Origin: a virus
Virus record (IMG/VR): IMGVR_UViG_3300044716_001642
Span: 1 to 64,000 of that record
Strand: one strand, 5' to 3'
Length of the DNA: 64,000 nucleotides
Below the pieces are notes generated by a model. It was given only the letters and a program-made list of their open reading frames with translations, was not told where the DNA came from and searched no databases. Within the stretch, counting starts at the first letter, position 1; each line of letters opens with the position of its first letter. A program made the position numbers and the translations under genes. Shown here in pieces: positions 3,876 to 23,682 of this stretch.

Positions 3876-3944
3876 GTAACTCCTTCAGTATCAACCACTT
3901 AGGGGCCCCTCGGGCCCGTAAGGCATTGCTGTTCAACACTTTAC
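3876..3944 (+). repeat. 69-nt palindromic intergenic element, copy 1
   Basis: Two 25-nt imperfect inverted repeats flank the GC core GGGGCCCCTCGGGCCC. Same layout as the other copies, at the 3' end of a transcription unit. Confidence 0.9.
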
Positions 3945-3947
3945 ACT

Positions 3948-4030
3948 TGGCGCGCTTCTTGAATACCTACTCACCGGGCCTGGCACGCTTCTTGATTGGC
4001 GCGTTACCTGGCCTGGCATGACGCCTGCTT
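3948..4030 (+). promoter_or_regulatory. three sigma54-like motifs
   Basis: TGGCGC-N5-TTGA at 3948, TGGCAC-N5-TTGA at 3981 and TGGCAT-N5-CTGCTT at 4014. The last, GC-type site lies just upstream of the A-rich tract of the next sigma70 promoter. Confidence 0.5.
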
Positions 4031-4070
4031 ACATCCCAAAAAAATAATTCAAAAAAAATAGAAATAATTC

Positions 4071-4098
4071 TTGCCTTCTTTGTGATCTGTGGTATCTT
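4071..4098 (+). promoter_or_regulatory. leaderless-type sigma70 promoter
   Basis: TTGCCT 4071-4076, 16-bp spacer, TATCTT 4093-4098, six bases to the ATG at 4105. AT-rich UP-like tract upstream. Confidence 0.8.
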
Positions 4099-4104
4099 AA
4101 AAAC

Positions 4105-4437
4105 ATGACAACGAACAACACCACCGCAGTAAACCCGAACGAAATCCCAGCCTCCACGACCCTCGTGAAGTTTACCTATGCCAAACCGCTTAAAGGCGGC
4201 GGCGTGAGTGTAACCCAGCGCGTCATCCGCATGGGGCGCGAGGTCATCCTGCCACTTCTCGCAGGCGGCTCGACTTGGGGCAAGAGCAACAACGGAAACC
4301 GCTTTGTGGCTCTCTATAAGAAGGACACAGAACAACGCCGCGAATACCTGCAAGGGGTTGAGGAGCAGGAGGATGGACGCCTCAAGATCAAGCGTTTCGA
4401 CTTCGGCTACATCAGCGATCTCCAAGTGCTGGCGTAA
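4105..4437 (+). CDS. early protein, AGGxxWGK paralogue family (copy A)
   Basis: A 110-residue protein with a Thr/Asn-rich N-terminus followed by a domain holding LAGGSTWGKSNNGN and YLQGVEE...KIKRFDF. The protein at 9327-9662 shares LAGG(S/T)xWGK, YLQGV and KRF in the same order and spacing, so the two are paralogues within the window. No external family is recognised. The GK in WGKS is not a full Walker A motif. Its promoter places the -10 box six bases from the ATG. Confidence 0.75.
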   Translation: MTTNNTTAVNPNEIPASTTLVKFTYAKPLKGGGVSVTQRVIRMGREVILPLLAGGSTWGKSNNGNRFVALYKKDTEQRREYLQGVEEQEDGRLKIKRFDFGYISDLQVLA

Positions 4438-4458
4438 GCCAGCCGAAATGAGCGACTT

Positions 4459-4515
4459 ATGCTAATCTTTACAGCAGGAATAATCATCGGAATAATCTTA
4501 ATTAAAAACTCTTAA
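4459..4515 (+). CDS. single-helix membrane microprotein
   Basis: The frame encodes only 18 residues (MLIFTAGIIIGIILIKNS), almost all hydrophobic with a central GxxxG-like GIIIG and a polar Lys-Asn end. Similar 18-26-residue frames with the same design occur at 6468, 9209, 16562, 24753 and 26411. It lies between two early genes in one direction. Translation is not proven, but the recurrence argues for a real class of membrane peptides. Confidence 0.45.
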   Translation: MLIFTAGIIIGIILIKNS

Positions 4516-4523
4516 TAAATACT

Positions 4524-4727
4524 ATGAAATCTATACTTAAAGCCAAAGTTCCACCCACAGTTAAACTCGGAAGCTGCACATTAGCAGGAATTTGTAGCCT
4601 TTACGAAACCCATAAGCAAAATATTCTCTGGGCATATAATAAAATGCTGGAAAGCGAAGGATATCAACCAGTTAGGCGTATGCCAGTTGGCACAAAATAC
4701 CAGTTTGTGGCTGGGTTTGGCTTCTGA
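4524..4727 (+). CDS. small hypothetical protein
   Basis: 67 residues, with VKLGSCTLAGICSLYETHK and YQPVRRMPVGTKYQF. No domain recognised. The N-terminal half could form a helix and the C-terminal half a short beta hairpin. It follows the microprotein frame by eight bases and is probably on the same transcript; the next 69-nt element follows its stop by about ten bases. Confidence 0.6.
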   Translation: MKSILKAKVPPTVKLGSCTLAGICSLYETHKQNILWAYNKMLESEGYQPVRRMPVGTKYQFVAGFGF

Positions 4728-4737
4728 TAAATAACCC

Positions 4738-4806
4738 GTAAGTCGCTGAGTATCAACGACTTAGGGGCCCCTCGGGCCCGTAAATCATTGTCAATCAACG
4801 GGTTAC
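4738..4806 (+). repeat. 69-nt palindromic intergenic element, copy 2
   Basis: Contains the perfect hairpin TAAGTCG...CGACTTA, the GGGGCCCCTCGGGCCC core and a second 25-nt arm ending GTTAC. Confidence 0.9.
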
Positions 4807-4810
4807 AACT

Positions 4811-4860
4811 TGGCACGGAAATTGAATACTAGAAACGAGGGCCTGGCATGGCGTTTGCTT
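4811..4860 (+). promoter_or_regulatory. two sigma54-like motifs
   Basis: TGGCAC-N5-TTGA at 4811 and TGGCAT-N5-TTGCTT at 4844, directly after the 69-nt element. Confidence 0.5.
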
Positions 4861-4901
4861 GCGGAGAAAAATAAAAATGAAAAAAAAATCGAAAAAATAT
4901 C

Positions 4902-4930
4902 TGGACAAAATTAGAGTTTTAGACTACATT
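4902..4930 (+). promoter_or_regulatory. leaderless-type sigma70 promoter
   Basis: TGGACA 4902-4907, 17-bp spacer, TACATT 4925-4930, six bases to the ATG at 4937. This promoter decides the start of the downstream gene. Confidence 0.75.
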
Positions 4931-4936
4931 AAAACC

Positions 4937-5092
4937 ATGAAGCAAGAAATGGTATCCAGATACGAGTGGGCAAAAGCAAGATTTGAAAATGGCTTGATCT
5001 CTCAAGATGAATGGTTCAAACTCTGCTTTGAAATCCTTGGTGAAATCATGGAGGAGAATAAAGATGTCCTCATCCGCCTCAAGAATCGCTGA
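4937..5092 (+). CDS. small hypothetical early protein
   Basis: 51 residues, charged and helical (VSRYEWAKARFENGLISQDEWFKLCFEILGEIMEEN). The frame is open further upstream to 4859, but the promoter -10 box at 4925-4930 fixes the ATG at 4937. The phrase 'ARFENGLISQDEW' resembles short-helical linker regions of phage regulatory proteins, but I recognise no family. Confidence 0.65.
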   Translation: MKQEMVSRYEWAKARFENGLISQDEWFKLCFEILGEIMEENKDVLIRLKNR

Positions 5093-5100
5093 AATAATCC

Positions 5101-5128
5101 TTGCAATAAAAATCTCAACCAATACAAT
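5101..5128 (+). promoter_or_regulatory. leaderless-type sigma70 promoter
   Basis: TTGCAA 5101-5106, 16-bp spacer, TACAAT 5123-5128, seven bases to the ATG at 5136. Confidence 0.75.
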
Positions 5129-5135
5129 TAAAACC

Positions 5136-5255
5136 ATGAAAGCAATAAACGCCATCGAAAAACTCATCCCCTACTTGTTCGCCTCTGTCTTCGCCCTTGC
5201 CATGTTCAATCTTTTCTTTGCATTCGCTGAATATGTCGAACGCCACGGGCTTTAA
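5136..5255 (+). CDS. small membrane protein
   Basis: A 39-residue protein with one hydrophobic segment (about residues 10-30, LIPYLFASVFALAMFNLFFA) between short polar ends, so a single-pass membrane protein is likely. The frame extends upstream, but the promoter places the start at 5136. It has its own promoter and precedes the 5301 gene by 45 bases. Function unknown. Confidence 0.6.
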   Translation: MKAINAIEKLIPYLFASVFALAMFNLFFAFAEYVERHGL

Positions 5256-5300
5256 TCTCTCAATCACCAACCAACAAAAAACAAAAAACAAAAAAACACC

Positions 5301-5483
5301 ATGACAAAAAAACACTTCACAGAAATTGCAAAGAGCATCAATCTTCAATACGCGCAAGCTGCTACAACCCAAGAGCTTAAATTGATTGAAAACATTGTGG
5401 ATGATCTCTGCTCTACCTTCAAAAATCTCAACAACTTGTTCGACAAGAATCGTTTCAAACAAGCCTGTGGAATAGAAAAATAA
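5301..5483 (+). CDS. small hypothetical early protein
   Basis: 60 residues, predicted all-helical, with leucine-rich heptads (LKLIENIVDDLCSTFKNLNNLF) that could form a short coiled coil. The leader is A/C-rich (CACCAACCAACAAAAAAC type) and has no Shine-Dalgarno sequence. A 69-nt element follows within six bases of the stop. No family recognised. Confidence 0.65.
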   Translation: MTKKHFTEIAKSINLQYAQAATTQELKLIENIVDDLCSTFKNLNNLFDKNRFKQACGIEK

Positions 5484-5488
5484 AGCGC

Positions 5489-5557
5489 GCAAACCCCTGA
5501 GTATCAACGACTTAGGGGCCCGTCGGGCCCGCAAGTCCTTACACCTCAACGCTTTAC
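5489..5557 (+). repeat. 69-nt palindromic intergenic element, copy 3
   Basis: Same two-arm layout; core GGGGCCCGTCGGGCCC with one base change in the loop. Confidence 0.9.
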
Positions 5558-5561
5558 AACT

Positions 5562-5611
5562 TGGCACACTTTTTGAATACCAGAAACGAGGGCCTGGCAT
5601 GTTCCATGCTT
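5562..5611 (+). promoter_or_regulatory. two sigma54-like motifs
   Basis: TGGCAC-N5-TTGA at 5562 and TGGCAT-N5-ATGCTT at 5595. Confidence 0.45.
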
Positions 5612-5640
5612 GTGCCTGAAAAATAAATTAAAAAAATATC

Positions 5641-5669
5641 TGGACAAAAACGAGAGAATCGACTACCCT
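5641..5669 (+). promoter_or_regulatory. leaderless-type sigma70 promoter
   Basis: TGGACA 5641-5646, 17-bp spacer, TACCCT 5664-5669, six bases to the ATG at 5676. Confidence 0.7.
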
Positions 5670-5675
5670 AAAACC

Positions 5676-5882
5676 ATGAAAAAATACCTCAACCAAGACG
5701 AACTGATCGACCGCCTCTCTGACTATGCAGGGGAAAACCTCTACAACAAATATGACCGCTTCATGGAGCAAGCTGGCGGCAATGTCTGGCTCGCTGAAAG
5801 CCTCGCGCAAGAGGACGCAATCCTAAAGCGTATCGCCCGCGAACAGGCAAGAGAGCTGAAGGAAACTGAACGCTTCGACTAA
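5676..5882 (+). CDS. small helical early protein
   Basis: 68 residues, acidic/basic patterned helices (LIDRLSDYAGENLYNKYDRF, LAQEDAILKRIAREQAREL). No recognised domain. The frame is open upstream to 5610, but the promoter fixes the start at 5676. It is followed after a few bases by the promoter of the next gene. Confidence 0.65.
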   Translation: MKKYLNQDELIDRLSDYAGENLYNKYDRFMEQAGGNVWLAESLAQEDAILKRIAREQARELKETERFD

Positions 5883-5889
5883 AAATAAT

Positions 5890-5918
5890 CCTTGACGCGC
5901 TCGCCACTAACCACTAAA
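5890..5918 (+). promoter_or_regulatory. sigma70-like promoter
   Basis: TTGACG about 5890-5895, 17-bp spacer, TAAACT. Unlike its neighbours it is followed by a leader of about 25 nt before the ATG at 5946. Confidence 0.6.
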
Positions 5919-5945
5919 CTAAAAACTCAATCAAATAACCTCACC

Positions 5946-6446
5946 ATGAAATTCACTAAAAAAACAGACCCTCTAAACTTCATCCAAGCAAAAGCTGTCC
6001 TTCAAAAGATCGAAGATCAAAAGCCCTACTTCTCTCTGACTGGGCGCATTGTTGAAAATGGGCGCGAATCTGTGAGCGGCGCAATTCACGATGAAATTCT
6101 TGCCGCCTTTCCAGAACTCGATGACCTTGTTGCCATGCACCTTTCCGACATTGACGGCAGACCCATGAACTCTTTTGAAAATGGCAAATACTGGGCAGGA
6201 TTTACAAAATGGGAAAACGGCAACGCTGAAATTCTCGCAAATCATTTTAGGATTGGAAAACAAAGATCGCAAGACCTTATGTATGAGACTCTTGTTGATA
6301 AATGCAATGACATTAAAGCTGATACTGGCGAGGATGTTCTTCCAGAAACTCTCTTCAAAGAGTTCCACGATAGGCAGTTAAGAAGATGGAAACAAGAGGC
6401 TGATAATGTCATTAAAAAATACTCTCTCGAAATCGTTGCAGATTAA
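5946..6446 (+). CDS. hypothetical early protein
   Basis: 166 residues, no recognised family. It has an N-terminal helix (DPLNFIQAKAVLQKIEDQK), a middle region with LDDLVAMHLSDIDGRPMNSFENGKYWAGFTKWENGNAEIL and a C-terminal helical part. The ATG at 5946 is preceded by an A/C-rich leader. It lies upstream of a microprotein and a lipoprotein gene in the same unit. Confidence 0.7.
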   Translation: MKFTKKTDPLNFIQAKAVLQKIEDQKPYFSLTGRIVENGRESVSGAIHDEILAAFPELDDLVAMHLSDIDGRPMNSFENGKYWAGFTKWENGNAEILANHFRIGKQRSQDLMYETLVDKCNDIKADTGEDVLPETLFKEFHDRQLRRWKQEADNVIKKYSLEIVAD

Positions 6447-6467
6447 CAGATTAAGGAGAATATAAAA

Positions 6468-6527
6468 ATGGAAATCACTCTACTTCTCGGCTTGGCTCTT
6501 GGCGTCTTTCTTGTGGCAAATAATTAA
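6468..6527 (+). CDS. single-helix membrane microprotein
   Basis: 19 residues (MEITLLLGLALGVFLVANN). It is preceded by AAGGAG at the right distance, one of the few clear Shine-Dalgarno sequences in this region, which supports translation. Its sequence closely parallels the frame at 9209 (ME-x-T-x-x-LG-x-x-LG-x-F), and both sit in the same position relative to early genes. Confidence 0.6.
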   Translation: MEITLLLGLALGVFLVANN

Positions 6528-6544
6528 ATTAAAAACAAAATAAA

Positions 6545-6754
6545 ATGAAAAACAAAATCATCCTCATCTCATTCTCTCTCAACCTCTTACTGGCAATGAC
6601 TTCCTGCTCATTCTATACTCTTGCCACAATTAAACAAAACGAGAATGATCAAGTAAAAAAAGCCGCTACGCAAGTCTTTGACTTTCCAGAGATTAAGAGC
6701 GAAGAAACGCCAAAAACCCTGCCAAAGAAAAAACAGAAAGCGCGCCAATCTTAA
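6545..6754 (+). CDS. small lipoprotein
   Basis: 69 residues with a lipoprotein signal: basic start (MKNK), hydrophobic core (IILISFSLNLLLAM) and the lipobox-like MTSC with Cys near residue 21. The mature part is hydrophilic and Lys-rich at its end (KKKQKARQS). It would be anchored in the host envelope; phage lipoproteins of this size often act in superinfection exclusion or lysis, but nothing here shows which. Confidence 0.65.
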   Translation: MKNKIILISFSLNLLLAMTSCSFYTLATIKQNENDQVKKAATQVFDFPEIKSEETPKTLPKKKQKARQS

Positions 6755-6763
6755 ACGGCACGC

Positions 6764-6832
6764 GTAAGTCCCTGAGTCTCAACGACTTAGGGGCCCCTCG
6801 GGCCCGCAAGTGATTGGTAATCAACAAGTTAC
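6764..6832 (+). repeat. 69-nt palindromic intergenic element, copy 4
   Basis: Both arms well kept: TAAGTCC...GACTTA and TAAC/GTTAC type second arm; perfect GGGGCCCCTCGGGCCC core. Confidence 0.9.
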
Positions 6833-6836
6833 AAGT

Positions 6837-6886
6837 TGGCACGCTTCTTGAATACTCCGATTCGAGGCCTGGCACGGCGTCTGCTT
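6837..6886 (+). promoter_or_regulatory. two sigma54-like motifs
   Basis: TGGCAC-N5-TTGA at 6837 and TGGCAC-N5-CTGCTT at 6870. Confidence 0.5.
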
Positions 6887-6914
6887 ACATGGCAAAAATA
6901 AATTAAAAAATATC

Positions 6915-6943
6915 TTGCACTTTTTTGGGACTTGGAGTATCTT
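6915..6943 (+). promoter_or_regulatory. leaderless-type sigma70 promoter
   Basis: TTGCAC 6915-6920, 17-bp spacer, TATCTT 6938-6943, six bases (TTAACC) to the ATG at 6950. Confidence 0.8.
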
Positions 6944-6949
6944 TTAACC

Positions 6950-7246
6950 ATGAACACGACCACCACCACCACCGACAACGAAATCATCAGCCTCGCCAGC
7001 GTGACTTGCGAGGAACTTGACGATACTTACTTTCAATTCGCCGACGGACTACGCGAAGAACAGGAAAGCGAGCAATACGATTCTTACCAAATCGACGACG
7101 ACAACGACGACGATCATCACGGCTTCAACCGCGAACCCCGCGAGGACAACTTCCGTGATGATGTGGACGCGGACGCAAACGCCTTGGCTGGAGCCGGTTA
7201 CGGCACGGACGAGGATTACGGATACTTCGGGGGCGACGAGTGGTGA
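6950..7246 (+). CDS. strongly acidic small early protein
   Basis: 98 residues, dominated by Asp and Glu (for example DDDNDDDHHGF and DDVDADANALAG) with Gly/Tyr/Trp at the end (YGYFGGDEW). The start is fixed by the promoter. Highly acidic early phage proteins often mimic DNA to block restriction or repair enzymes (Ocr, Arn, DMP19 are established examples), but there is no sequence similarity to those and much of this protein may be disordered. Confidence 0.65.
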   Translation: MNTTTTTTDNEIISLASVTCEELDDTYFQFADGLREEQESEQYDSYQIDDDNDDDHHGFNREPREDNFRDDVDADANALAGAGYGTDEDYGYFGGDEW

Positions 7247-7248
7247 GC

Positions 7249-7317
7249 GTAAACCCCTGAGTCTCAACGACTTAGGGGCCCCTCGGGCCCGCAAGTGGTT
7301 GGCGTTCAACGCTTTAC
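7249..7317 (+). repeat. 69-nt palindromic intergenic element, copy 5
   Basis: Starts three bases after the upstream stop codon; perfect GGGGCCCCTCGGGCCC core. Confidence 0.9.
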
Positions 7318-7320
7318 GAT

Positions 7321-7370
7321 TGGCACGATTCTTGAATACCTCAAATTGCAACTTGGCACGCCACCTGCTT
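7321..7370 (+). promoter_or_regulatory. two sigma54-like motifs
   Basis: TGGCAC-N5-TTGA at 7321 and TGGCAC-N5-CTGCTT at 7354. Confidence 0.5.
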
Positions 7371-7410
7371 ACAGGGAAAAATAAAAATAAATAAAAATTA
7401 AAAATAATTC

Positions 7411-7438
7411 TGGACATTAAGAAACCTTGTGATACCTT
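7411..7438 (+). promoter_or_regulatory. leaderless-type sigma70 promoter
   Basis: TGGACA 7411-7416, 16-bp spacer, TACCTT 7433-7438, six bases to the ATG at 7445. Confidence 0.75.
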
Positions 7439-7444
7439 AAATCC

Positions 7445-7684
7445 ATGACAACAACACCAACCACCACGAAAGCAATGAAGAAAAAGACAACAAACCGCTG
7501 GAGGCTGTCTATAACTTACCCGTCTGGGCATGGCATAGCCGAAACATTCGCAGTTGGCGCAACTAAACAGCAAACTCTGTATAGATGGTTTCTGCAATTT
7601 TATTGTGGCAGTGTTCCATCTGGCGCTCGCATCCCTAAAAATGCAATCTCTATCACTTGGATGAAAATTTTTCCTTCAAAATAA
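7445..7684 (+). CDS. small hypothetical early protein
   Basis: 79 residues, basic, with a Thr/Lys-rich N-terminus (MTTTPTTTKAMKKKTTN) and WRLSITYPSGHGIAETFAVGATKQQTLYRWF behind it. The latter reads like a small beta-hairpin plus helix module. No family recognised. Leaderless promoter directly upstream; the -35 box of the next promoter begins right behind the stop. Confidence 0.65.
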   Translation: MTTTPTTTKAMKKKTTNRWRLSITYPSGHGIAETFAVGATKQQTLYRWFLQFYCGSVPSGARIPKNAISITWMKIFPSK

Positions 7685-7687
7685 TCC

Positions 7688-7716
7688 TTGACACCATCAA
7701 CTTTAACCATTAAATT
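7688..7716 (+). promoter_or_regulatory. sigma70-like promoter
   Basis: TTGACA, 17-bp spacer, TAAATT; a leader of about 14 bases (AAAACTCAAAAC) then leads to the ATG at 7730. Confidence 0.65.
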
Positions 7717-7729
7717 AAAAACTCAAAAC

Positions 7730-8230
7730 ATGAATACAACAAACACCCAAACCCAAAACTCCAACCTCATCATCTCGCTCTACGGCTCTGAAATTGCCGT
7801 TGGCATCGAAGGAACACGCGAGGAAATCAACCAGCAATTCAACCGCTTTTTCAACATGGGAGGGGCAGCACCAAACTGCACTGCCGCTTTCTGCTCTGAA
7901 GACTCTGACGCTGGCGACAATTACATTCACTTCTTGAGCGACCGCTTCGCTTACTTCCTCTCTGACGAAGAGGCAATGATTAAAGCCCTTGAGACTGAAC
8001 AACTTATGATTGCAAACTCCAAACCCAATCCCGAACATAAAGGCAAGAAAGACGGCATTCTTAATGAGGTAAAAACTTTAGCCAAAGATCTTTACAAAAG
8101 TATCAAGCGCGAGAACTTCATGCTTTACAAAACCTCGGAACAGGTTGCGTTCAAGAAACTTGACGGCGGCGCACCTTCGCTGGATATGTCATCGCTCAAC
8201 TTCTTCTCGACTCACGCCCATGTGAGTTGA
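7730..8230 (+). CDS. hypothetical early protein
   Basis: 166 residues. An Asn/Thr/Gln-rich start is followed by LIISLYGSEIAVGIEGTREEINQQFNRFF, a Cys/Asp-rich middle (CTAAFCSEDSDAGDNYIHFLSDRF) and a Lys-rich helical part. No recognised family. The frame is open upstream to 7688 but overlaps the promoter, so 7730 is the start. A 69-nt element follows the stop. Confidence 0.7.
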   Translation: MNTTNTQTQNSNLIISLYGSEIAVGIEGTREEINQQFNRFFNMGGAAPNCTAAFCSEDSDAGDNYIHFLSDRFAYFLSDEEAMIKALETEQLMIANSKPNPEHKGKKDGILNEVKTLAKDLYKSIKRENFMLYKTSEQVAFKKLDGGAPSLDMSSLNFFSTHAHVS

Positions 8231-8240
8231 GGAAATCCCC

Positions 8241-8309
8241 TTAAGTTGCTGAATATCAACGACTTAGGGGCCCCTCGGGCCCGCAAGGCCTTGCTACTCA
8301 ACGCTTTAC
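8241..8309 (+). repeat. 69-nt palindromic intergenic element, copy 6
   Basis: TTAAGTTG...CAACGACTTA first arm, perfect core, second arm ending in CTTTACA. Confidence 0.9.
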
Positions 8310-8313
8310 AACT

Positions 8314-8397
8314 TGGCACGAGAATTGAATAGCCCGATCTAAAACTTGGCACGCTTTTTGAATATCTCAATCAGAGGCCTGGCACGCTTCTTGAATA
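8314..8397 (+). promoter_or_regulatory. three sigma54-like motifs
   Basis: TGGCAC-N5-TTGA at 8314, 8347 and 8380, evenly spaced by 33 bases. The 33-base spacing of neighbouring motifs recurs at the other copies. Confidence 0.5.
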
Positions 8398-8452
8398 GCT
8401 GTGAGAGGGTTAAAAATAAAAATGAAAAAAAATAAAAAAAATCCCTTGCCTA

Positions 8453-8482
8453 TTCTGTCAAATAAGACTATTCTCTTTCTTG
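8453..8482 (+). promoter_or_regulatory. sigma70-like promoter
   Basis: TTGCCT, 17-bp spacer, TATTCT, preceded by an A-run; a leader of about 25 A/C-rich bases precedes the ATG at 8504. Confidence 0.6.
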
Positions 8483-8503
8483 TAATCAACACCACCAAAC
8501 ACC

Positions 8504-9175
8504 ATGACATTACTTGCCACCAATACCAAACTCGAAAAAGGAACCAAACTCGACTGGACGACAAAAGGTCTGTCCCTCGCTCCTGCTAACCTCTCTGGAA
8601 AACAGCTCTGCCCTCACCGCTCCGCTGGCTGTGAACTCGCCTGCCTCAACACCGCTGGCATGGGCGTATTCTCCAATGTTCAAGAGGCTCGAATCAATAA
8701 AACCCGCTTTCTGATCGAGAAACGCGCCGACTTTCTAGCGGCTCTCAACAAGGAACTCGTCAACCTCAACAAACGAGCAGGCAAGGGTCAGAAAATTGCT
8801 GTGCGCCTCAATGTTCTTTCCGATCTGCCTTGGCATAACATGATCGACATGAAGAGCTTCGAGAATCTTCATTTTTATGATTATACTCCTAACATGGGTC
8901 GCATGATCCAATTCTTAAATGGAGAACTCCCTGCAAACTATCACCTTACATTCAGCCGCAAAGAAAATAATCAGGCTAAGGTTGAATTGATCGTTGCAAT
9001 GGGCGGCAATGTCGCGGTCGTGTTCGACAAACTCCCCGAAAGCTATCTCGGCAAGCAAGTTGTGGACGGTGACGCAACCGACTTGCGATTCCTTGATGCT
9101 AAAGGGGTTATCGTCGGGCTGAAAGCCAAGGGCAAGGGCAAAAAAGACACATCGGGCTTCGTAGTAAAAACATAA
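8504..9175 (+). CDS. GP88-family phage protein
   Basis: 223 residues matching the phage 'gene product 88' family: APANLSGKQLCPHRSAGCELACLNTAG with Cys36, Cys43 and Cys47, followed by SNVQEARINKTRFL and FYDYTPNMGRMI. The three conserved Cys look like a metal or Fe-S site; the biochemical role of the family is not established to my knowledge. The leader is A/C-rich without a Shine-Dalgarno sequence. The start is the first ATG after the promoter and gives the family's usual N-terminus. Confidence 0.8.
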   Translation: MTLLATNTKLEKGTKLDWTTKGLSLAPANLSGKQLCPHRSAGCELACLNTAGMGVFSNVQEARINKTRFLIEKRADFLAALNKELVNLNKRAGKGQKIAVRLNVLSDLPWHNMIDMKSFENLHFYDYTPNMGRMIQFLNGELPANYHLTFSRKENNQAKVELIVAMGGNVAVVFDKLPESYLGKQVVDGDATDLRFLDAKGVIVGLKAKGKGKKDTSGFVVKT

Positions 9176-9208
9176 CATGAAAGGACATACAACAAAAACA
9201 AACTATAA

Positions 9209-9274
9209 ATGGAACTCACTATCATTCTTGGCTTTATACTTGGCATTTTTATGCTCTACTCTTCTAAAAATTAA
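9209..9274 (+). CDS. single-helix membrane microprotein
   Basis: 21 residues beginning MELTIILGFILGIFML and ending in Ser-Lys-Asn. It is a near-twin of the frame at 6468 at both protein and DNA level. It lies between the GP88 gene and the promoter of the next gene. Confidence 0.55.
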   Translation: MELTIILGFILGIFMLYSSKN

Positions 9275-9290
9275 ATCAAAAAAAATTAAC

Positions 9291-9319
9291 TTGACAAAAC
9301 AAACCAAAAAACCTATAAA
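9291..9319 (+). promoter_or_regulatory. leaderless-type sigma70 promoter
   Basis: TTGACA 9291-9296, 17-bp spacer, TATAAA 9314-9319, seven bases to the ATG at 9327. Near-consensus. Confidence 0.8.
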
Positions 9320-9326
9320 TAATAAT

Positions 9327-9662
9327 ATGATTAACCTCACTAAAACCAACAAAACCAACAACATGAACACAAACAACCGCAAAGCTCAACAACTCGCTTC
9401 ACTCATCACTGAAATCGTAATTAACAAGGGAACCTGCTTTGCAGGATTCACTTACAACGGCAAACGCCGCAACCTCACCCTCGGCGCAAAAATGGCTGGT
9501 CGCCTCGCTGGCGGCACTTCATGGGGCAAGACATACGCCAATGGCGCGATTGTAGAGCATAATAATAATCTTTATCTCCAAGGCGTTCCTAATAATGAGG
9601 ATACGACTGCCGTGGTGAAGCGGTTCAAACTCGCCGAAGTTGATAACTTTGTAATTGGTTAG
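9327..9662 (+). CDS. early protein, AGGxxWGK paralogue family (copy B)
   Basis: 111 residues from the ATG set by the promoter (a second ATG at 9363 gives 99 residues). LAGGTSWGKTYANGA, YLQGVPN and VVKRFKL align with the 4105-4437 protein, marking an in-window duplication with strong divergence. No external family recognised. It is followed by a classical intrinsic terminator and then element copy 7. Confidence 0.75.
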   Translation: MINLTKTNKTNNMNTNNRKAQQLASLITEIVINKGTCFAGFTYNGKRRNLTLGAKMAGRLAGGTSWGKTYANGAIVEHNNNLYLQGVPNNEDTTAVVKRFKLAEVDNFVIG

Positions 9663-9682
9663 TGGTCAGGGTATAAGGGTAG

Positions 9683-9715
9683 AAACGCGCCTTGTGGTGG
9701 GGCGCGTTTCTTTTT
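9683..9715 (+). terminator. intrinsic terminator
   Basis: Perfect 9-bp stem AAACGCGCC/GGCGCGTTT (9683-9691 with 9701-9709), nine-base loop, then CTTTTT. Confidence 0.85.
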
Positions 9716-9733
9716 GCCCAGAAGCCTTTCCTC

Positions 9734-9802
9734 GTAAGTTGCTCAGCATCAACGACTTACGGGCCCCTCGGGCCCCTAAAGCATTGACGATCAACGAGTT
9801 AC
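9734..9802 (+). repeat. 69-nt palindromic intergenic element, copy 7
   Basis: Core variant CGGGCCCCTCGGGCCC. It follows a separate intrinsic terminator, so the element is not simply the terminator itself. Confidence 0.9.
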
Positions 9803-17772: not shown

Positions 17773-18354
17773 TCAAGATAGCTTGAATACTCGGGCTGGC
17801 TTGCCCTTGCCTTGTGGCTTTGTGCCAACAATCTGTATTGTGTCTGGATTCTCGCGCTGAATCTTTGCAATCTCATTATTGATAACGAACTTCTTTACTC
17901 CAAGTTTAGCAGCGATATGCCCTACTGTAAACTCTTCATGGCGAGGCAATTGAATTGCGTGCTTCTTTGGGCGACCCGCGCCCACTTTTGTATGTTTAAC
18001 ATTCTCAATGCTCATTTTCTTTACTTTCTTTGTTTTAGGTTTTACTTCTTTTTCTTCTTCTTTTTTTTCATTTAAAATTGTATTTAAAATTTCTTTTGGA
18101 ATTGTTATCATGCCCTCCTTATTGATTGGTAGCTTTTGCCTCCCCACATCATAAGAGACCATTGTGGCTGGAGCGAAGAAGTCAACGAATGGTGAATAGC
18201 CCCCTGCATCTGTTTGTTTGTATCCCTGCACCTTGCAGGTTGACTCGCCGCCTCTGATGAGATACATTAGCTTGAATGTATCTTTAAGAGATTCTACGAT
18301 GAACGGAGCACCATCTTGCAGATTTTGCAATTGAGTTGTTCTACGCTGTTGCAT
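17773..18354 (-). CDS. putative DNA-binding protein with HTH and AT-hook-like motif
   Basis: 193 residues from the inner ATG. The N-terminal half has APFIVESLKDTFKLMYLIRGGEST; a Lys/Glu-rich linker follows (KEEEKEVKPKTKKVKK); then GAGRPKKH (AT-hook-like), and a helix-turn-helix-like segment FTVGHIAAKLGVKKFVINNEIAKIQRE, ending basic. Probably a transcription or replication accessory factor. It overlaps the end of the RuvB-like helicase gene, suggesting co-transcription. Confidence 0.6.
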   Translation of the reverse strand: MQQRRTTQLQNLQDGAPFIVESLKDTFKLMYLIRGGESTCKVQGYKQTDAGGYSPFVDFFAPATMVSYDVGRQKLPINKEGMITIPKEILNTILNEKKEEEKEVKPKTKKVKKMSIENVKHTKVGAGRPKKHAIQLPRHEEFTVGHIAAKLGVKKFVINNEIAKIQRENPDTIQIVGTKPQGKGKPARVFKLS

Positions 18355-19351
18355 CAGTAAACCCTCCCTCATTCTTGAAAACATACTTGCGGAGATACTC
18401 TTTGCCGTTTGCTGTGATCTCCCTGCCGCCAGCTTTAATCTGCATCAGACCTTTCTTGACAAGATAGGACTCAAACTCAAGCATGATGGCTTGCCGTGTG
18501 AACCCTGTCTTTGCTGACAAGTTGTTGAGGGAGCAACCAGTAGGGAACTCGCTCAATGCCTTGAGAACTTGAACCTCGGAACTCTCAAGACCCATAGGCA
18601 TGATACCAAGAACCTCGCAGAGAGTTTCCCAATGTTTCTGGCAAAGTTTTGAAACCTTGCCGCCCTTCATATACTGGACGATGTTATCCTTTGCCATCAA
18701 TACAGCGTTACGCGCATTGCCACGGCATACCGAAGCAACATGAGGCATTACATCTTCTGGAATCTCCAAGCCCTCATCAAGATTCTCGCGGACAATCCTT
18801 CCAAGGTCTGAATACTCGTATTCGTCCATGTGAAGAATACGGCAACGATCTTTGAAAGGCCCCACCAATTTTTGCGGATCAGTAGTGGCGAATACAAAGC
18901 TCACCTTCTTGAAGTCAAAAAGAATTTCTGAATCTTCATATCGAAACAAGTTACTATTCTTCTTGTTTGGATTAAGGATTGTAAGCAGTGAAGTTTGAAC
19001 GCTTTCTGGAAGAGCATGACACTCATCAAAAAAAACTGTCAAAGTTTGGTCATTAACATACTTGAGAACAATGTCTTCCACGAATTGTCTCACATTCTTA
19101 ACTGTGCTGGAATTGACTGTCAGCAAAGGCTTTGGGCGACCTCCCATAGCGTCGAGTCGAAGATTCCTTGCGAGGGAAACAGCGAACTCTGTTTTGCCAG
19201 AACCTCTACCGCCTACCAAAAGAATGGTTGGCAGAATTTGAGTCTCGCGGAAAGAGTTGAGATAAAAGCGAAGTTGCGCTTTCAATTTGTTCTGTCCGAT
19301 CAAGTGGGCGAAATGATCTTTCTCTTCTTGGGTTGTGTTTGTATCGTTCAT
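18341..19351 (-). CDS. RuvB-like AAA+ ATPase (Holliday junction helicase type)
   Basis: 336 residues. Walker A GGRGSGKT (47-54), Walker B VFFDECHA (106-113), sensor 1 FVFATTDP, arginine-finger region FKDRCRI, and a C-terminal winged helix (GLESSEVQVLKALSEFPTG...FESYLVKKGLMQ) typical of RuvB. RuvB drives branch migration on Holliday junctions; no RuvA is seen here, so it may use a host partner or act alone. Promoter TTGACT-17-TACTAT sits eight bases from the ATG. Confidence 0.85.
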   Translation of the reverse strand: MNDTNTTQEEKDHFAHLIGQNKLKAQLRFYLNSFRETQILPTILLVGGRGSGKTEFAVSLARNLRLDAMGGRPKPLLTVNSSTVKNVRQFVEDIVLKYVNDQTLTVFFDECHALPESVQTSLLTILNPNKKNSNLFRYEDSEILFDFKKVSFVFATTDPQKLVGPFKDRCRILHMDEYEYSDLGRIVRENLDEGLEIPEDVMPHVASVCRGNARNAVLMAKDNIVQYMKGGKVSKLCQKHWETLCEVLGIMPMGLESSEVQVLKALSEFPTGCSLNNLSAKTGFTRQAIMLEFESYLVKKGLMQIKAGGREITANGKEYLRKYVFKNEGGFTDATA

Positions 19352-19359
19352 GGTTTAAT

Positions 19360-19388
19360 ATAGTAGTTGGTTTTTATACAATAGTCAA
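19360..19388 (-). promoter_or_regulatory. near-leaderless sigma70 promoter with conserved spacer
   Basis: Minus strand: TTGACT (19388-19383), spacer beginning ATTGTATAAAA, TACTAT (19365-19360), eight bases to the ATG at 19351. Confidence 0.7.
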
Positions 19389-19415
19389 ATAATTTTATTC
19401 TAAATCCGAATAATT

Positions 19416-19724
19416 TTATAGATTGATTGTCGCGTCTAATAGAGACTCATACTTCTTCCATGCCCTGCCCAATGCAATTGAATTTCCAACTTTCCTGCTG
19501 TAGTTTTCCTGCTCAGAGCAAACTGCCTTGCCAGACACATTGAATGTTTTATCTGGACTGGTTAGCTGAATTTCGGTAATGCCCCCCTTGGCTGAAACCT
19601 CGGAAGAACTTCCATTAAAGCGATCACGCAAAAAATAATTGCGCTGATGCAGGACGCGAACTTTCCAGCCGCGCTGCCGTAGATTTTTGATTGACAATGT
19701 TGAGTTTGGTATTTCTGGTTTCAT
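19416..19724 (-). CDS. conserved phage hypothetical protein
   Basis: 102 residues, basic N-terminal half (LRQRGWKVRVLHQRNYFLRDRF) and GGITEIQLTSPDKTFNVSGKAVCSEQENYSRKVGNSIALGRAWKKY. The pattern (G-W-K-V-R-V-x-H ... GG-x-T-E-I ... A-x-C-S ... N-Y-x-R-K-x-G-N-x-I-A-L-G-R-A) is common to short phage proteins of unknown function. Confidence 0.7.
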   Translation of the reverse strand: MKPEIPNSTLSIKNLRQRGWKVRVLHQRNYFLRDRFNGSSSEVSAKGGITEIQLTSPDKTFNVSGKAVCSEQENYSRKVGNSIALGRAWKKYESLLDATINL

Positions 19725-19736
19725 ATTTTTATTTAA

Positions 19737-20066
19737 TTAAAATGGGTTTTCGTCAAATGTTTCCAGCTCTGCCTGTGGGGAAATATGGTCGTCATCCTTT
19801 GGCTCTTCTTTTACTTTGTTAGCCTTTGGAGAATCCGGCTCATCATTTCCGAAGTCAACAAGTTGCATCTCTGCCTTACCGCTACTCACGCAATGCGTGA
19901 CAACATCCAAGTTAGAACTAACAGCCTTCCCGTTAAGTCCAACAAGTTGTGCGTATCGGATAGACAAAATGACTTTTGCATCTGGTTTCAATACTCTGTT
20001 TAGTTCACTCAGTTCAACTTGCATGAAGCTAACTGACCCTGGCTTTCTTCCTCGTTGTTTTGACAT
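19737..20066 (-). CDS. conserved phage hypothetical protein
   Basis: 109 residues, beginning MSKQRGRKPGSVSFMQVELSEL with a GRKPGS basic loop, a middle AKVILSIRYAQLVGL and an acidic disordered tail (KEEPKDDDHISP). An ATG six bases upstream exists, but it abuts the -10 box (20078-20073), so the second ATG, six bases behind the box, is the promoter-consistent start. Confidence 0.65.
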   Translation of the reverse strand: MSKQRGRKPGSVSFMQVELSELNRVLKPDAKVILSIRYAQLVGLNGKAVSSNLDVVTHCVSSGKAEMQLVDFGNDEPDSPKANKVKEEPKDDDHISPQAELETFDENPF

Positions 20067-20072
20067 ACCCAT

Positions 20073-20101
20073 AATATAAATGAATTTTAATGTGAATGCA
20101 A
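20073..20101 (-). promoter_or_regulatory. leaderless-type sigma70 promoter
   Basis: Minus strand: TTGCAT (20101-20096), 17-bp spacer, TATATT (20078-20073), six bases to the ATG at 20066. Confidence 0.75.
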
Positions 20102-20119
20102 GTATAAAGTATAGGATTG

Positions 20120-20188
20120 TTAAGTTATTGATACTGAGGCGCTTGCGGGCCGGAGGGGCCCGTAACCTGTTGATATTGAATGACTTAT
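20120..20188 (-). repeat. 69-nt palindromic intergenic element, copy 14
   Basis: Minus orientation, between the rIIB terminator and the promoter of the 20066 gene. Confidence 0.9.
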
Positions 20189-20225
20189 AAAGGTGCCAGT
20201 TTGCAACCTTAAAGAATAAAAATAC

Positions 20226-20256
20226 AAAAAAAATGGGAGGCTTGCGCCCCCCATTT
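20226..20256 (-). terminator. intrinsic terminator of rIIB
   Basis: Minus strand: AAATGGGGGGC-GCAA-GCCTCCCATTT followed by a run of T (A-run at 20226-20233 on the plus strand). Confidence 0.85.
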
Positions 20257-20280
20257 CTTTCTTCAGTATGAGTTTATCTC

Positions 20281-21174
20281 TCAATCTTCTTCCTCGTCCC
20301 ACGCAAGTTCATTGTAGGCATCCTCATATCCTTTGCTGTATGCCTCGTCCAAGTCGTTTTCGGTGTAGAGAGGTTCACCATCAGAGGAAACAACAGAGTG
20401 CGAAAACTCTTCTGCCTCAACCTTGCGGTCTGTGTATTCGCGCAAGACCTCCATCTGGCAAACGCGCATCTTGGCGTTGTTGTAGTCTTTGGGAACTGCG
20501 ATAACATCAGCAGGATTCACCTTGACAATAACAATTCGATCAGTCGAATCGGAGTTAGAACCGAAGTGTGGCAGGTAGCTCCATCCCGCACAATGCAATC
20601 CATTTGAGCAAGTCCTGTCTCGGTCTGGATCAACCTCGTTGCGCTTCATCGTTGGCGTTGCGCCAACAGAGTAGTCAACAGAGTTGGAGTGAATGTCCTT
20701 CCAGTTGCCGCGAATCTTTTTCCACGCGAGGAAGTGACCATCCTCGGTGATTGGGATTTGGTTTGCCTCAAGGAACAAGTAGAGTTCTTGAACTGCCGTG
20801 TAGGATGGATTCTCCATCACATTCTCAAGGAACTTGACAAGTCCCGTTGCGTCCAGTCCCTCGCGCATAATGTCGAGGATGCGTTCGCACATAACATTGT
20901 GGAGAGGCTTGCCATCATACAAAACCTCGCCGCCAACAACTTCGACGCTACCATCGAAGGTCTGGTTGATCTGATTCTTGATTGTGGCGAGTCCTGCCGC
21001 TTCTGCATACTTGCCCTCTTTGCAGAGTTGGAGAATGTCGTTGAACTTGGGGTTTGAGTTGTCGATGACCGCAGTATCCTCGGAGAAGATAAGCGTGATT
21101 TGCTCCTTGGACACGAAGCGTCCGATGAGAGCTTGAGTTGCGTATGGGTTGGTCTGGTTGTTAGTTGTGTTCAT
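20281..21174 (-). CDS. rIIB: rIIB-like protein
   Basis: 297 residues. The C-terminal half has FLENVMENPSYTAVQELYLFLE, ITEDGHFLAWKKIRGNWKDIHS and DRTCSNGLHCAGWSYLPHFG, which match the T4-type rIIB family. It ends with a very acidic tail. In T4, rIIA and rIIB act at the membrane in superinfection exclusion and lysis inhibition; their exact activity is not settled. It follows rIIA in the same direction but has its own promoter and terminator. The frame is open upstream through a 69-nt element; the ATG at 21174 follows the promoter. Confidence 0.85.
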   Translation of the reverse strand: MNTTNNQTNPYATQALIGRFVSKEQITLIFSEDTAVIDNSNPKFNDILQLCKEGKYAEAAGLATIKNQINQTFDGSVEVVGGEVLYDGKPLHNVMCERILDIMREGLDATGLVKFLENVMENPSYTAVQELYLFLEANQIPITEDGHFLAWKKIRGNWKDIHSNSVDYSVGATPTMKRNEVDPDRDRTCSNGLHCAGWSYLPHFGSNSDSTDRIVIVKVNPADVIAVPKDYNNAKMRVCQMEVLREYTDRKVEAEEFSHSVVSSDGEPLYTENDLDEAYSKGYEDAYNELAWDEEED

Positions 21175-21183
21175 AACAAAACC

Positions 21184-21212
21184 AATATGCACCTTTTTGA
21201 TTGGCGTGTCAA
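21184..21212 (-). promoter_or_regulatory. sigma70 promoter of rIIB
   Basis: Minus strand: TTGACA (21212-21207), 17-bp spacer, CATATT (21189-21184), nine bases to the ATG at 21174. Confidence 0.75.
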
Positions 21213-21238
21213 ATTTTTTTTCAAGTTTTTTTTCAATA

Positions 21239-21308
21239 CGTAAGTTGTTGGTAGCCAAGGACTTGCGGGCCGGAGGGGCCCGTAACTCGTTGGCGTTGAT
21301 ATACTTAC
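21239..21308 (-). repeat. 69-nt palindromic intergenic element, copy 15
   Basis: Minus orientation, between the rIIA terminator and the rIIB promoter; well kept arms. Confidence 0.9.
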
Positions 21309-21328
21309 ATGAGCTGGGCGAAAAGCAA

Positions 21329-21360
21329 AAAGAAGGGGCGCGGCAACCACTCCGCGCCCC
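21329..21360 (-). terminator. intrinsic terminator of rIIA
   Basis: Minus strand: GGGGCGCGG/CCGCGCCCC perfect 9-bp stem (21360-21352 with 21343-21335), then TTCTTTTT. Confidence 0.85.
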
Positions 21361-21398
21361 CAACCACCACTAACCATGATTTTTATTTAATTTTAATT

Positions 21399-23516
21399 CT
21401 ACAACGCATCAATCATGTTGATATAATCTGTGAGCGCTTTCTTGTAAGTGTCTGGATTGTATTCGTCTGAAACTGGCAAGACGAGAGGATACTTTTTAAT
21501 GATCTCGTTTACAAGATTCGTAAACTCACTCATTTCCTTGTCGATAGATGCTTGAGCATCAGCAATGAATGACTTATTGGCAAGGCGAATGAGGCTAATA
21601 GTTTTACTATCCATGCACTTCGATTGATCTTGAATGATTGGCTTGATTGTAGCCATTGCTTTGCCAACAATATGATTGGCAGGGAGAAGCGTAACCAATG
21701 ACTTGAGAGTTTCTGGCAACCCGCGCATTTCCCAGTTTTTAGAAAAATCGCGGAACTTACTCTTGAAGTTGTCCCAAGAAATAGCATTGATTCCCTTGTT
21801 GATCTGGTCTTGAAATTTTTTGTCTTGAACAAGATTGCAGAACTTAACAACAGGCTTGCCGTCGAAAGTCGAATCATTGAACTTGTCATAATCGGCTTTT
21901 GGAAGGAACAAGGCGGCAGTCTTCTGCTTTGATTCGTCAGAGAGAATCGCAATGATCGGGTCAACATAATTTGCTTGAAGTTGATCGTAAACCTTATTCG
22001 ATACCGAGGGGAACAGGATGAACTTTTCTGTGTCCTTGTGCGAGGCGGCGTTGTAAAACTCAACGCAATCGTGAAACCCATAGTTGCGACCAGAGCGCAT
22101 ACGGAATGTGCCTTTGGCAGTTGCGCCAGTTGAAGTCGAGGTCTTACCCTTGCTTGGAACTTTAGGCAGGGAACTTGTCAACACGAACTCTCCCACCCAT
22201 CCAGTTTCTTGAATGAACTTGGCTTTTTCAGAATCCTTGAGGATGTAGAAAGCGTATGAGGCATAGCTATCATTCTTTTTCTTTTCGAGGATGACTTGCT
22301 TTGCGCGACCAACGCCGCCCACCTTCAAATCGTCCAAGAATAAAAATGCTTTTTTATTCGGCTCAACATTCTTCTCTCCCTCGCTAACATTGATTTTCTT
22401 GTTCCATGATGCCGTGGCATACAGATTAACCTTTGCATCCTTAACCTGCATTGCAGTTGCGGTCAAAGGCTTGCCGTTCCAGTTGAGCTTGAGCGTATCT
22501 GGTAGGAAGGTGAAAGATTCGCGGAGGCTTTTCAGCTTGAGCTTTGCTTCCCAAGTGTTGCCCTTGAAAGCGTCCATGTCGGCTTGCATTTTTGGCAGGA
22601 AGGAGTCAACGATCTGTTCCAGCTTGGTGAACATCCTTGTCATCGTGAGGTCATCCAGTTGGATTGCCTCGCGGGATGGAGTGATGCTGTATTCACCGAT
22701 TGGAACATGGATAACAAGATTGCATCGGAGAAGTCTATCGAACTTGGCGAACTTTTTATTCTCCAAGAGAGTTTGAACAGGTAGGCTGTAACCCACGCCT
22801 CCCATGACAATGACAGGAGAACCACTGCCCTCGTAGATTGCGAAGTTGCTTGTGCCGCCATCAAAGGTCATAGCTTGAGGCGTGAAGTTGATATTCTTGG
22901 CAATGCCATCACAGAAAACTCGCGGCTTGATTGAGAAGAATCGGTAAGCTCTTTCGACCTTCTCGTTGAATTGAGAAACATGACGATCAGGGCAAAGGAA
23001 CTTTACCTCAAAGCCATTGCGTTCAGTAGTTGCCTCGCTCTTAATCAGTCGAATGTCGGGAAGTCCATTTGATTGCAGGGAGATGAAGTATTGCGACTTT
23101 GTGCCATTGAATCGGGAGATTGCTTGGAAGTTATTCACAAGCGAGCAAAGCGACCACTTGCCAACGCCGAACCCGCCAATGAGGTCATTGTTGCCGCGCT
23201 TGCTGGATGCCCCAATGATTGAGTAAATGCGGATCATTTGATCGTGAGAGATACCCACGCCATTGTCAACGAAACGAACATTGCCGTCGAGTCGTGAGGG
23301 AAGATGCAATTCCCATCCGAGGTCTTGTGTCCCTGCCTCGATAGTAGCATCAACGCAATTTGCACCCACTTCACGAAGGACTGCCATCGTTGGGTCTTGA
23401 TAGAGATTGGCAATCATGCGGAAGAAGTGAGCGATGTTCTTCTCGTCGATACCTACGGAAATAGTCTCGAAGTTGCCGTTGAATTGAACTTTGTTGGTTT
23501 TGTCTGCGATAATCAT
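21399..23516 (-). CDS. rIIA: rIIA-like protein with GHKL ATPase fold
   Basis: 705 residues. The N-terminus has the GHKL/Hsp90-type ATP-binding motifs: REVGANCVDATIEAG (N-box), VRFVDNGVGIS (G1 box) and GGFGVGKWS (G2 box). The overall architecture and its partner rIIB identify a T4-type rIIA homologue. T4 rIIA is a membrane-associated protein needed in lambda lysogens and involved in lysis timing. The leader is 30 bases of ACCAACC-type sequence without a Shine-Dalgarno sequence. Confidence 0.85.
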   Translation of the reverse strand: MIIADKTNKVQFNGNFETISVGIDEKNIAHFFRMIANLYQDPTMAVLREVGANCVDATIEAGTQDLGWELHLPSRLDGNVRFVDNGVGISHDQMIRIYSIIGASSKRGNNDLIGGFGVGKWSLCSLVNNFQAISRFNGTKSQYFISLQSNGLPDIRLIKSEATTERNGFEVKFLCPDRHVSQFNEKVERAYRFFSIKPRVFCDGIAKNINFTPQAMTFDGGTSNFAIYEGSGSPVIVMGGVGYSLPVQTLLENKKFAKFDRLLRCNLVIHVPIGEYSITPSREAIQLDDLTMTRMFTKLEQIVDSFLPKMQADMDAFKGNTWEAKLKLKSLRESFTFLPDTLKLNWNGKPLTATAMQVKDAKVNLYATASWNKKINVSEGEKNVEPNKKAFLFLDDLKVGGVGRAKQVILEKKKNDSYASYAFYILKDSEKAKFIQETGWVGEFVLTSSLPKVPSKGKTSTSTGATAKGTFRMRSGRNYGFHDCVEFYNAASHKDTEKFILFPSVSNKVYDQLQANYVDPIIAILSDESKQKTAALFLPKADYDKFNDSTFDGKPVVKFCNLVQDKKFQDQINKGINAISWDNFKSKFRDFSKNWEMRGLPETLKSLVTLLPANHIVGKAMATIKPIIQDQSKCMDSKTISLIRLANKSFIADAQASIDKEMSEFTNLVNEIIKKYPLVLPVSDEYNPDTYKKALTDYINMIDAL

Positions 23517-23546
23517 GGTTTGGTTTGGTTGGTTGGTTGAGTCTCT

Positions 23547-23575
23547 AATATGCAGGTTTTTTATATCGAGGTCAA
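23547..23575 (-). promoter_or_regulatory. sigma70 promoter of rIIA
   Basis: Minus strand: TTGACC (23575-23570), 17-bp spacer, CATATT (23552-23547). Confidence 0.75.
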
Positions 23576-23613
23576 GGGATTTTCTTAAAAAAGTTTTAGA
23601 ATCTTTTGCTCGC

Positions 23614-23682
23614 GTAAGTTGCTATCGTTCAAGGACTTGCGGGCCGGACGGGCCCCTAAAATGCTGATAATCAACAACTTAA
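23614..23682 (-). repeat. 69-nt palindromic intergenic element, copy 16
   Basis: Last copy, minus orientation, upstream of the rIIA promoter. Core variant GGGGCCCGTCCGGCCC. Confidence 0.9.

Follow-up and report, generated by a model that had tools for sequence, protein, structure and literature searches.

A repeated double palindrome at the borders of early gene cassettes in a family of uncultivated phages

Why does a 69-nt palindromic sequence recur sixteen times between the early transcription units of a phage? The element lies in the first 64 kb (hereafter the window) of IMG/VR record IMGVR_UViG_3300044716_001642, which comprises 134,417 bases in full and encodes rIIA, rIIB, a clamp loader, DNA polymerase, a DnaB-like helicase, UvsX, ribonucleotide reductase and RNA ligases. 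Because of this gene content, and because a domain search of the record found no integrase or resolvase domain, the record probably represents a virulent tailed phage. An earlier account drawn from the window's letters (the sequence-only reading) had left three possibilities open: a role in RNA processing or stability, an insulator, or a site to which a protein binds. The comparisons reported here lend good support to a double-stranded DNA site as opposed to an RNA device, and they favor a fuller proposal, whose chances we judge to be evenly balanced, in which the element is the protein-bound boundary of exchangeable early gene cassettes.

All sixteen copies reported between 3876 and 23682 are present, 10 on the plus strand (3876-13737) and 6 on the minus strand (14650-23682), and orientation follows transcription in 16/16, as had been stated (Table 1). 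The length of exactly 69 nt that was claimed for copies 1-7 applies to all 16, which align without gaps. Each contains two 25-nt arms that are both imperfect inverted repeats and direct repeats of each other, as described, around a GC core; the core given for them, GGGGCCCCTCGGGCCC, is present but exact in only five copies (3876, 4738, 6764, 7249 and 8241). The ideal arm, TAAGTCGTTGA-NNN-TCAACGACTTA, is a 25-bp imperfect palindrome, and the two arms of an element stand 42 bp apart, or about four helical turns, with the GC spacer between them. Matches to one copy revealed none outside 3.8-23.7 kb of the record, and a scan for the core in its other 70 kb also found none. Repeat matches among the copies have E values of 1e-8 to 1e-33 and all but one of the genome's 24 GGGCCC hexamers fall inside elements, so the repeat cannot be attributed to chance.

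Relatives were gathered by pattern and protein searches. They include one near-identical contig (3300042545_002007) and nine diverged genomes (G001, 3300020160_002556; G003, 3300046011_011878; G004, 3300032116_001414; G005, 3300028569_002424; G007, 3300046777_002930; G008, 3300044617_002163; G009, 3300002275_000002; G010, 3300008261_000210; G012, 3300032289_002562). The genomes that bear the element constitute a family of uncultivated phages, and isolated phages gave no match. Nine related genomes, counting the record itself and setting G009 aside, contain 77 elements in total, and in every one of these the spacer is exactly 17 nt. G009 retains the arms, but its spacer is 25 nt and its core is quite different and CG-rich.

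The arms indicate what kind of site the element is. Among 158 distinct arms from ten genomes, the signature AA-N5-T-N7-A-N5-TT is essentially invariant (AA, T8 and TT in 158/158, A16 in 157/158) and dyad-symmetric about the arm center. Other positions mostly show preferences with the same palindromic bias, without compensation: Watson-Crick pairing across arms is close to chance (541 observed versus 535 expected on the left, 552 versus 577 on the right), and A.C mismatches (239) outnumber G.T (129). Since the invariant positions are symmetric and deviations go uncompensated, the arm is best read as two half-sites recognized independently by a dimer, and each 25-bp arm most likely binds one protein dimer. 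Later scans used position weights or demanded the invariant positions, and counts from those scans alone would be biased; the same invariants were already seen in the first 36 copies, most of which were found by their core, and invariance is therefore not solely an artefact of detection. The arms can also be read as K-x-L-x-[ILVF]-N-x-L, and 69 is 3 x 23, but a protein-coding relic was rejected on account of in-frame stops in the copies at 6764, 14650 and 17437 and of invariant positions that are symmetric about the arm center and not codon-like.

The second line of evidence is position. In the window, 9 of 16 copies begin no more than about 10 nt from the upstream stop codon, one of them containing that codon itself. 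In a count over all 77 copies, in which the calls of short genes are crude, 26 follow a co-directional stop by no more than 12 nt, and in no case was a co-directional start called in the 12 nt that come after the element. Placement of copies at unit ends and before the next promoter, as originally proposed, is the usual arrangement, with two departures. Copy 14650-14718 has no promoter after it, and the copy at 12485 follows an opposite-strand gene here, although it follows a co-directional gene end in G001. That opposite-strand gene, 11905-12426 (-), has only a weak zinc-finger match and looks endonuclease-like by eye; G001 has an unrelated co-directional gene in its place, and 11905-12426 is a probable insertion or replacement. 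The three classical terminators noted earlier are hairpin-plus-T structures in front of the copies at 9734, 20120 and 21240, and each stands between the gene and the element. Positions are kept across related genomes: the convergent junction is filled by an element in G000, G001, G007 and G010, which are all of the relatives (4/4) that have one. Four sigma-70-like promoters of the plus block occupy short gaps devoid of any element, which is thus not a general promoter part. Given these promoters and the promoterless copies at convergent junctions, we conclude that the element marks borders and not promoters as such.

Between these borders, gene order and direction differ among the relatives. 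The order of the A, B, F, y, z and O cassettes varies; gene F, which stands alone between two elements in the window, is elsewhere in G001, and cassettes A and B are swapped in G003 and G004. Whole units also change direction. The unit comprising a DUF6915 gene and Y shares the direction of the rII side in G000 and G001, yet both genes run with the opposite block in G007, as does Y in G010, and an Ogg-like unit is flipped in G007. By inspection, elements lie at the rearrangement borders. The two parts of the element have also diverged differently. Cores differ by 10% between copies in one genome versus 18% between orthologous copies of different genomes, whereas for arms the relationship is reversed, with 33-36% within a genome and 29% between orthologous copies. 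Core homogenization would be explained by recombination between elements or by co-evolution with a trans-acting factor; either would suffice.

A counterpart exists outside phages. A first genome scan with a narrow core gave no matches. A 43-bit double-arm pattern, for which about 0.06 chance matches were expected, had five matches in a collection of 84,980 genomes, all of them in Acidobacteriaceae. These belong to one multi-copy intergenic repeat, for which we found no published name. Its copies number at least 40 in strain KBS 89 and 32 in an Edaphobacter metagenome-assembled genome, and the repeat is also present in Granulicella, another member of the Acidobacteriaceae. A broader pattern hit 6 of 297 sampled Acidobacteriota genomes, and a reversed control hit none. 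The repeat measures about 270 bp in all and consists of an arm, a 17-nt spacer, an arm, 4 nt, a third arm, a GC hairpin with a T-rich run and further conserved sequence, including a conserved GGGGCTTGACATGC tail. It shares with the phage element the arm signature, the 17-nt spacing and a location mostly 3' of co-directional genes, and differs in its third arm, its terminator-like hairpin, its chromosomal location and its lack of -24/-12 promoter boxes. This suggests, as a lead and not as proof, a shared binding protein and an Acidobacteriaceae-like host for the phages. The closest rIIA is only 29% identical, and we therefore draw no host inference from rIIA. Through the counterpart, the binding protein could be sought in cultivable bacteria, and a host link could be tested for this uncultivated phage group.

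Comparison thus establishes a shared pattern, the lack of covariation described below, border position, shuffling, inversion, core homogenization and a linkage to -24/-12 sites. We propose that the element marks a cassette border: it starts at, or just past, the final stop codon of a unit, and in most cases the next unit's -24/-12 and/or -35/-10 promoters come after it. A host- or phage-encoded protein would bind the arm pairs to form a compact complex, which would block read-through from the neighboring unit and so allow a cassette to keep its own promoters at any place or in either direction. As short matches for homologous recombination, the repeated borders would allow cassettes to move and flip and would homogenize their cores. 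If this is true, the direction of transcription units is itself flippable, cassette by cassette. A wider version is tentative, and we regard it as rather doubtful: a nucleoprotein boundary site common to the phage clade and bacterial chromosomes, in which a host gene-end site was taken over, sigma-54 promoter arrays were added, the site became a universal plug for isolated cassettes that are moved or flipped, and cores were rewritten in concert in each lineage. The sequence-only reading had overlooked the sigma-54-type promoters, the shuffling and inversion of cassettes and the Acidobacteria counterpart. Its interpretation is supported in part: a protein-binding site or insulator fits the near-invariant dyad positions and the placement at unit ends. 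Position is also conserved across relatives, which was the second point of the check set out with that reading.

Several points weigh against a protein-bound cassette boundary. No binding protein was identified, and no candidate has a reliable DNA-binding match; a winged helix-turn-helix candidate at 17773-18384 was dropped (Pfam E value 0.19; AlphaFold predicted local distance difference test score 59, and below 50 in the C-terminal half). The roadblock is a step that we infer. Core homogenization may stem from co-evolution with a trans-acting factor and not from recombination, the position count suffers from the crude gene calls already mentioned, and the fixed distance of 3-4 nt that separates element and first -24 box in 17 units would also fit a promoter-regulatory site.

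That distance leads to the main rival. We refer to the -24/-12 boxes, which were called by consensus only, as putative sigma-54-type promoters, for which TGGCAC-N5-7-TTGCT has been published as the consensus (PMC12316311). Elements of one block have one to three such sites downstream of them, pointing the same way; 17 sites occur in the first 25 kb, versus 0.4 expected, and one in the remaining 109 kb. Across the relatives, the 260 nt downstream of elements contain 57 TGGCAC sites on the same strand, versus 4 on the opposite strand. In an unbiased test, TG stands exactly at offset 12 in 56 of the 57 (chance, 1/16). The third base of the -12 box is C in 23 and A in 33, and many boxes read TTGA instead of TTGC. 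Tandem boxes are spaced by 33 bp (14 times), 27 bp (3) or 34 bp (2), and the first -24 box lies 3-4 nt past the element in 17 units and 10-13 nt past it in about ten more. G009 carries boxes on both strands. A-rich tracts and sigma-70-like promoters follow downstream of the boxes. For early genes at 3165, 3411, 4071, 5101 and 6915, the sigma-70-like -10 hexamer ends 6-7 nt before the ATG, implying putatively leaderless mRNAs.

This linkage raises the alternative that the palindromes are upstream activating sequences (UASs). A bacterial enhancer-binding protein, or some other regulator of the host, would bind them and activate the sigma-54-type promoters directly downstream, in which case early cassettes would answer to host physiology. 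The strand bias, the TG offset and the fixed distances all favor it. Measured from the second or third box, the dyads would stand at about -77/-119 or -110/-152, presumably the usual UAS distances, and the three tested Acidobacteriaceae genomes carrying these sites encode sigma-54. However, 41 of 77 elements, mainly on the rII side, have no TGGCAC site within 260 nt downstream; they include the whole rII block and the copies at convergent junctions. For a UAS the first box lies too near, the Acidobacteria consensus is without the -24/-12 motif, and no enhancer-binding AAA+ domain in the phage record rises above cut-off; for a phage-encoded enhancer-binding protein there was only a sub-threshold partial match, and that candidate was dropped. 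A UAS-like role is the main rival, yet by itself it explains fewer than half of the copies, and we consider it unlikely as the whole explanation.

Strongly disfavored, and distinctly less probable, is an RNA element whose alternative hairpins serve as a terminator or as a processing or stability element at mRNA 3' ends. Copies at unit ends and convergent junctions, a GC core able to fold and the GC hairpin with T-rich run that follows the arms in the Acidobacteria counterpart are in its favor. The RNA interpretation nonetheless fails the check for compensatory changes that accompanied it: in 44 divergent copies, no helix of the three-hairpin fold covaries; paired cells make up 69.7% (shuffles, 70.4 ± 0.5), and covariation is 0.084 (shuffles, 0.089). 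An RNAalifold consensus leaves four nearly invariant G-C pairs, none of them compensated. Four alternative pairings (left arm, right arm, core-extended and outer) gave Watson-Crick pairs equal to the expectation from column composition in 36 copies. Whole elements folded on the sense strand no better than column-shuffled chimeras (-24.7 versus -25.0 kcal/mol); taken by itself, the left arm did slightly better (1 chimera set in 200 was as low), whereas the right arm and the extended core did worse. Alternative foldings are thus possible on paper, as had been suggested, but are not what selection keeps, because pairing, covariation and folding are no better than in shuffles. The frequent A.C mismatches in the arms also argue against a conserved helix. 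No consistent T run follows the copies, separate terminators stand at only three of 16 borders, already in front of the element, and no conserved terminator stem-loop is seen. No Rfam family reached its gathering score on any element; in the window, only tRNAs did.

A selfish or host-derived mobile repeat, resembling repetitive extragenic palindromic (REP) sequences or miniature inverted-repeat transposable elements and spread by transposition with no function for the phage, would fit with the multi-copy intergenic repeat with the same arms in Acidobacteriaceae chromosomes. REPs are palindromes of 20-40 bp with a GTAG or CGTC tag at one end (PMC3733652). The phage copies are without this tag; in the Acidobacteria repeat, a CGTC stands between the second and third arms. 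Invariant positions in essentially all phage arms, together with the fixed spacer, make all copies look constrained, and copies are orthologous across relatives. With no integrase or resolvase domain in the record either, we hold this explanation to be very unlikely. Still less probable is a site-specific recombination site of the attC kind, at which a recombinase would move cassettes: one oriented element per cassette directly behind a stop codon, with shuffling and inversion at elements, would suit it, but integron attC requires RYYYAAC/GTTRRRY core sites whereas C follows AA in only 7 of 158 arms, the record has no tyrosine or serine recombinase domain, and it is the sequence that is conserved here, not the fold.

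Coordinates of elements and promoters are collected in Table 1. The solo arm listed there has position weight matrix scores of 25.3 in the window and 26.4 in G001, versus a best score of 17.0 in a shuffled genome. It is followed by a conserved non-coding stretch, 23684-23910 (-), that is 81.7% identical in G001; a small open reading frame (ORF) in this stretch is not conserved there, its ATG being ATA.

Table 1. Elements, promoter boxes and a solo arm in the window
Feature	Position	Strand	Remarks
Copy 1	3876-3944	+	two -24/-12 boxes upstream, three downstream
Copy 2	4738-4806	+	about 10 nt past stop of ORF 4524-4727
Copy 3	5489-5557	+	5 nt past stop 5483
Copy 4	6764-6832	+	9 nt past stop 6754
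Copy 5	7249-7317	+	2 nt past stop 7246
Copy 6	8241-8309	+	10 nt past stop 8230
Copy 7	9734-9802	+	classical terminator in front
Copy 8	10889-10957	+	ORF 10593-10892 ends in the copy's first TAA
Copy 9	12485-12553	+	upstream neighbor is opposite-strand gene 11905-12426
Copy 10	13669-13737	+	5 nt past stop 13663
Copy 11	14650-14718	-	convergent junction, between stops 14646 (+) and 14722 (-)
Copy 12	16127-16195	-	
Copy 13	17437-17505	-	about 1 nt past stop codon 17507-17509
Copy 14	20120-20188	-	preceded by terminator behind rIIB
Copy 15	21240-21308	-	preceded by terminator behind rIIA
Copy 16	23614-23682	-	before rIIA
Solo arm without core	23883-23907	-	kept in G001 (711-735, +)
Two putative -24/-12 boxes	3807-3859	+	upstream of copy 1
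Three putative -24/-12 boxes	3947-4031	+	33-bp spacing, after copy 1
Two putative -24/-12 boxes	4810-4861	+	33-bp spacing
Two putative -24/-12 boxes	5561-5612	+	33-bp spacing
Two putative -24/-12 boxes	6836-6887	+	33-bp spacing
Two putative -24/-12 boxes	7320-7371	+	33-bp spacing
Three putative -24/-12 boxes	8313-8397	+	33-bp spacing
Single putative -24/-12 box	9806-9824	+	
Sigma-70-like promoter	4071-4107	+	-10 ends 6 nt before ATG (putatively leaderless)

Other features of the record were noted in passing. Adjacent to tRNA-Met/Pro, 10958-11731 (+) is a non-coding region of about 770 nt in which variable stretches lie between blocks that are 95-97% identical in G010 and G001; the region is also present in G007 and G009. 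No Rfam family scored above gathering in it (abiF was sub-threshold, 29.8 versus 37 bits), and it is possibly a large structured phage RNA. A family of 30-40 nt repeats, ATATTATTTGGCGACTTCGCGTTCGCAAAT, surrounds tRNA genes at 23987-24088 and 26128-26543 and is distinct from the 69-nt element. Tandem repeats of 54 nt occupy 305-475 inside ORF 2-1033, upstream of a tail-fiber-like gene. GTCGAC occurs twice in the whole record, versus 13.6 expected, which suggests restriction-site avoidance.

Among known systems, SPBRE of the temperate Bacillus phage SPbeta, a 15-bp motif that lies in promoter regions and to which the repressor MrpR binds (PMC10516654), is likewise a multi-copy intergenic phage DNA site, and it was first recognized from sequence alone and later shown to be protein-bound. 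The element described here differs in being paired and abutting gene ends, in a record with no integrase or resolvase domain. The stoperators of cluster A mycobacteriophages (PMC9283540) are asymmetric sites for a monomeric repressor that stops elongation when bound. They too are numerous across a phage genome and could serve as a working model for the proposed roadblock, whereas here two 25-bp palindromes flank a GC spacer. Compared with sigma-54 promoters in general (PMC12316311), the boxes downstream of the elements match both motifs at the correct spacing, but they lie in phage early cassettes, in tandem arrays spaced at a fixed 33 bp (sometimes 27 bp), with separate sigma-70-like promoters downstream of them, and many have TTGA at -12. 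The literature that we searched contained no sigma-54-type promoter arrays in phage early regions; such arrays suggest a coupling of infection to a stress or nutrient sigma factor of the host.

T4-type phages are said to carry promoter early stem loops (PeSLs), reportedly described by Arbiol in 2010 and by Comeau in 2014. In one account (PMC4503421), T4 PeSLs are repeated, promoter-containing cassette borders that mediate modular shuffling in a variable early region. By analogy, this is the closest known kind of element, though here without a conserved RNA stem-loop. In both cases a repeated composite border with an early promoter, called here by consensus, is found in a variable region, and the borders coincide with cassette shuffling between relatives. 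The conserved part of the 69-nt element is, however, a double palindrome that we read as protein-binding DNA and not a terminator stem-loop; the promoters appear to be of the sigma-54 type, whole units flip, and the element is also found in convergent junctions that have no promoter. If a protein-bound boundary is the correct explanation, these phages would have arrived at a second, differently built route to interchangeable early cassettes, outside T4.

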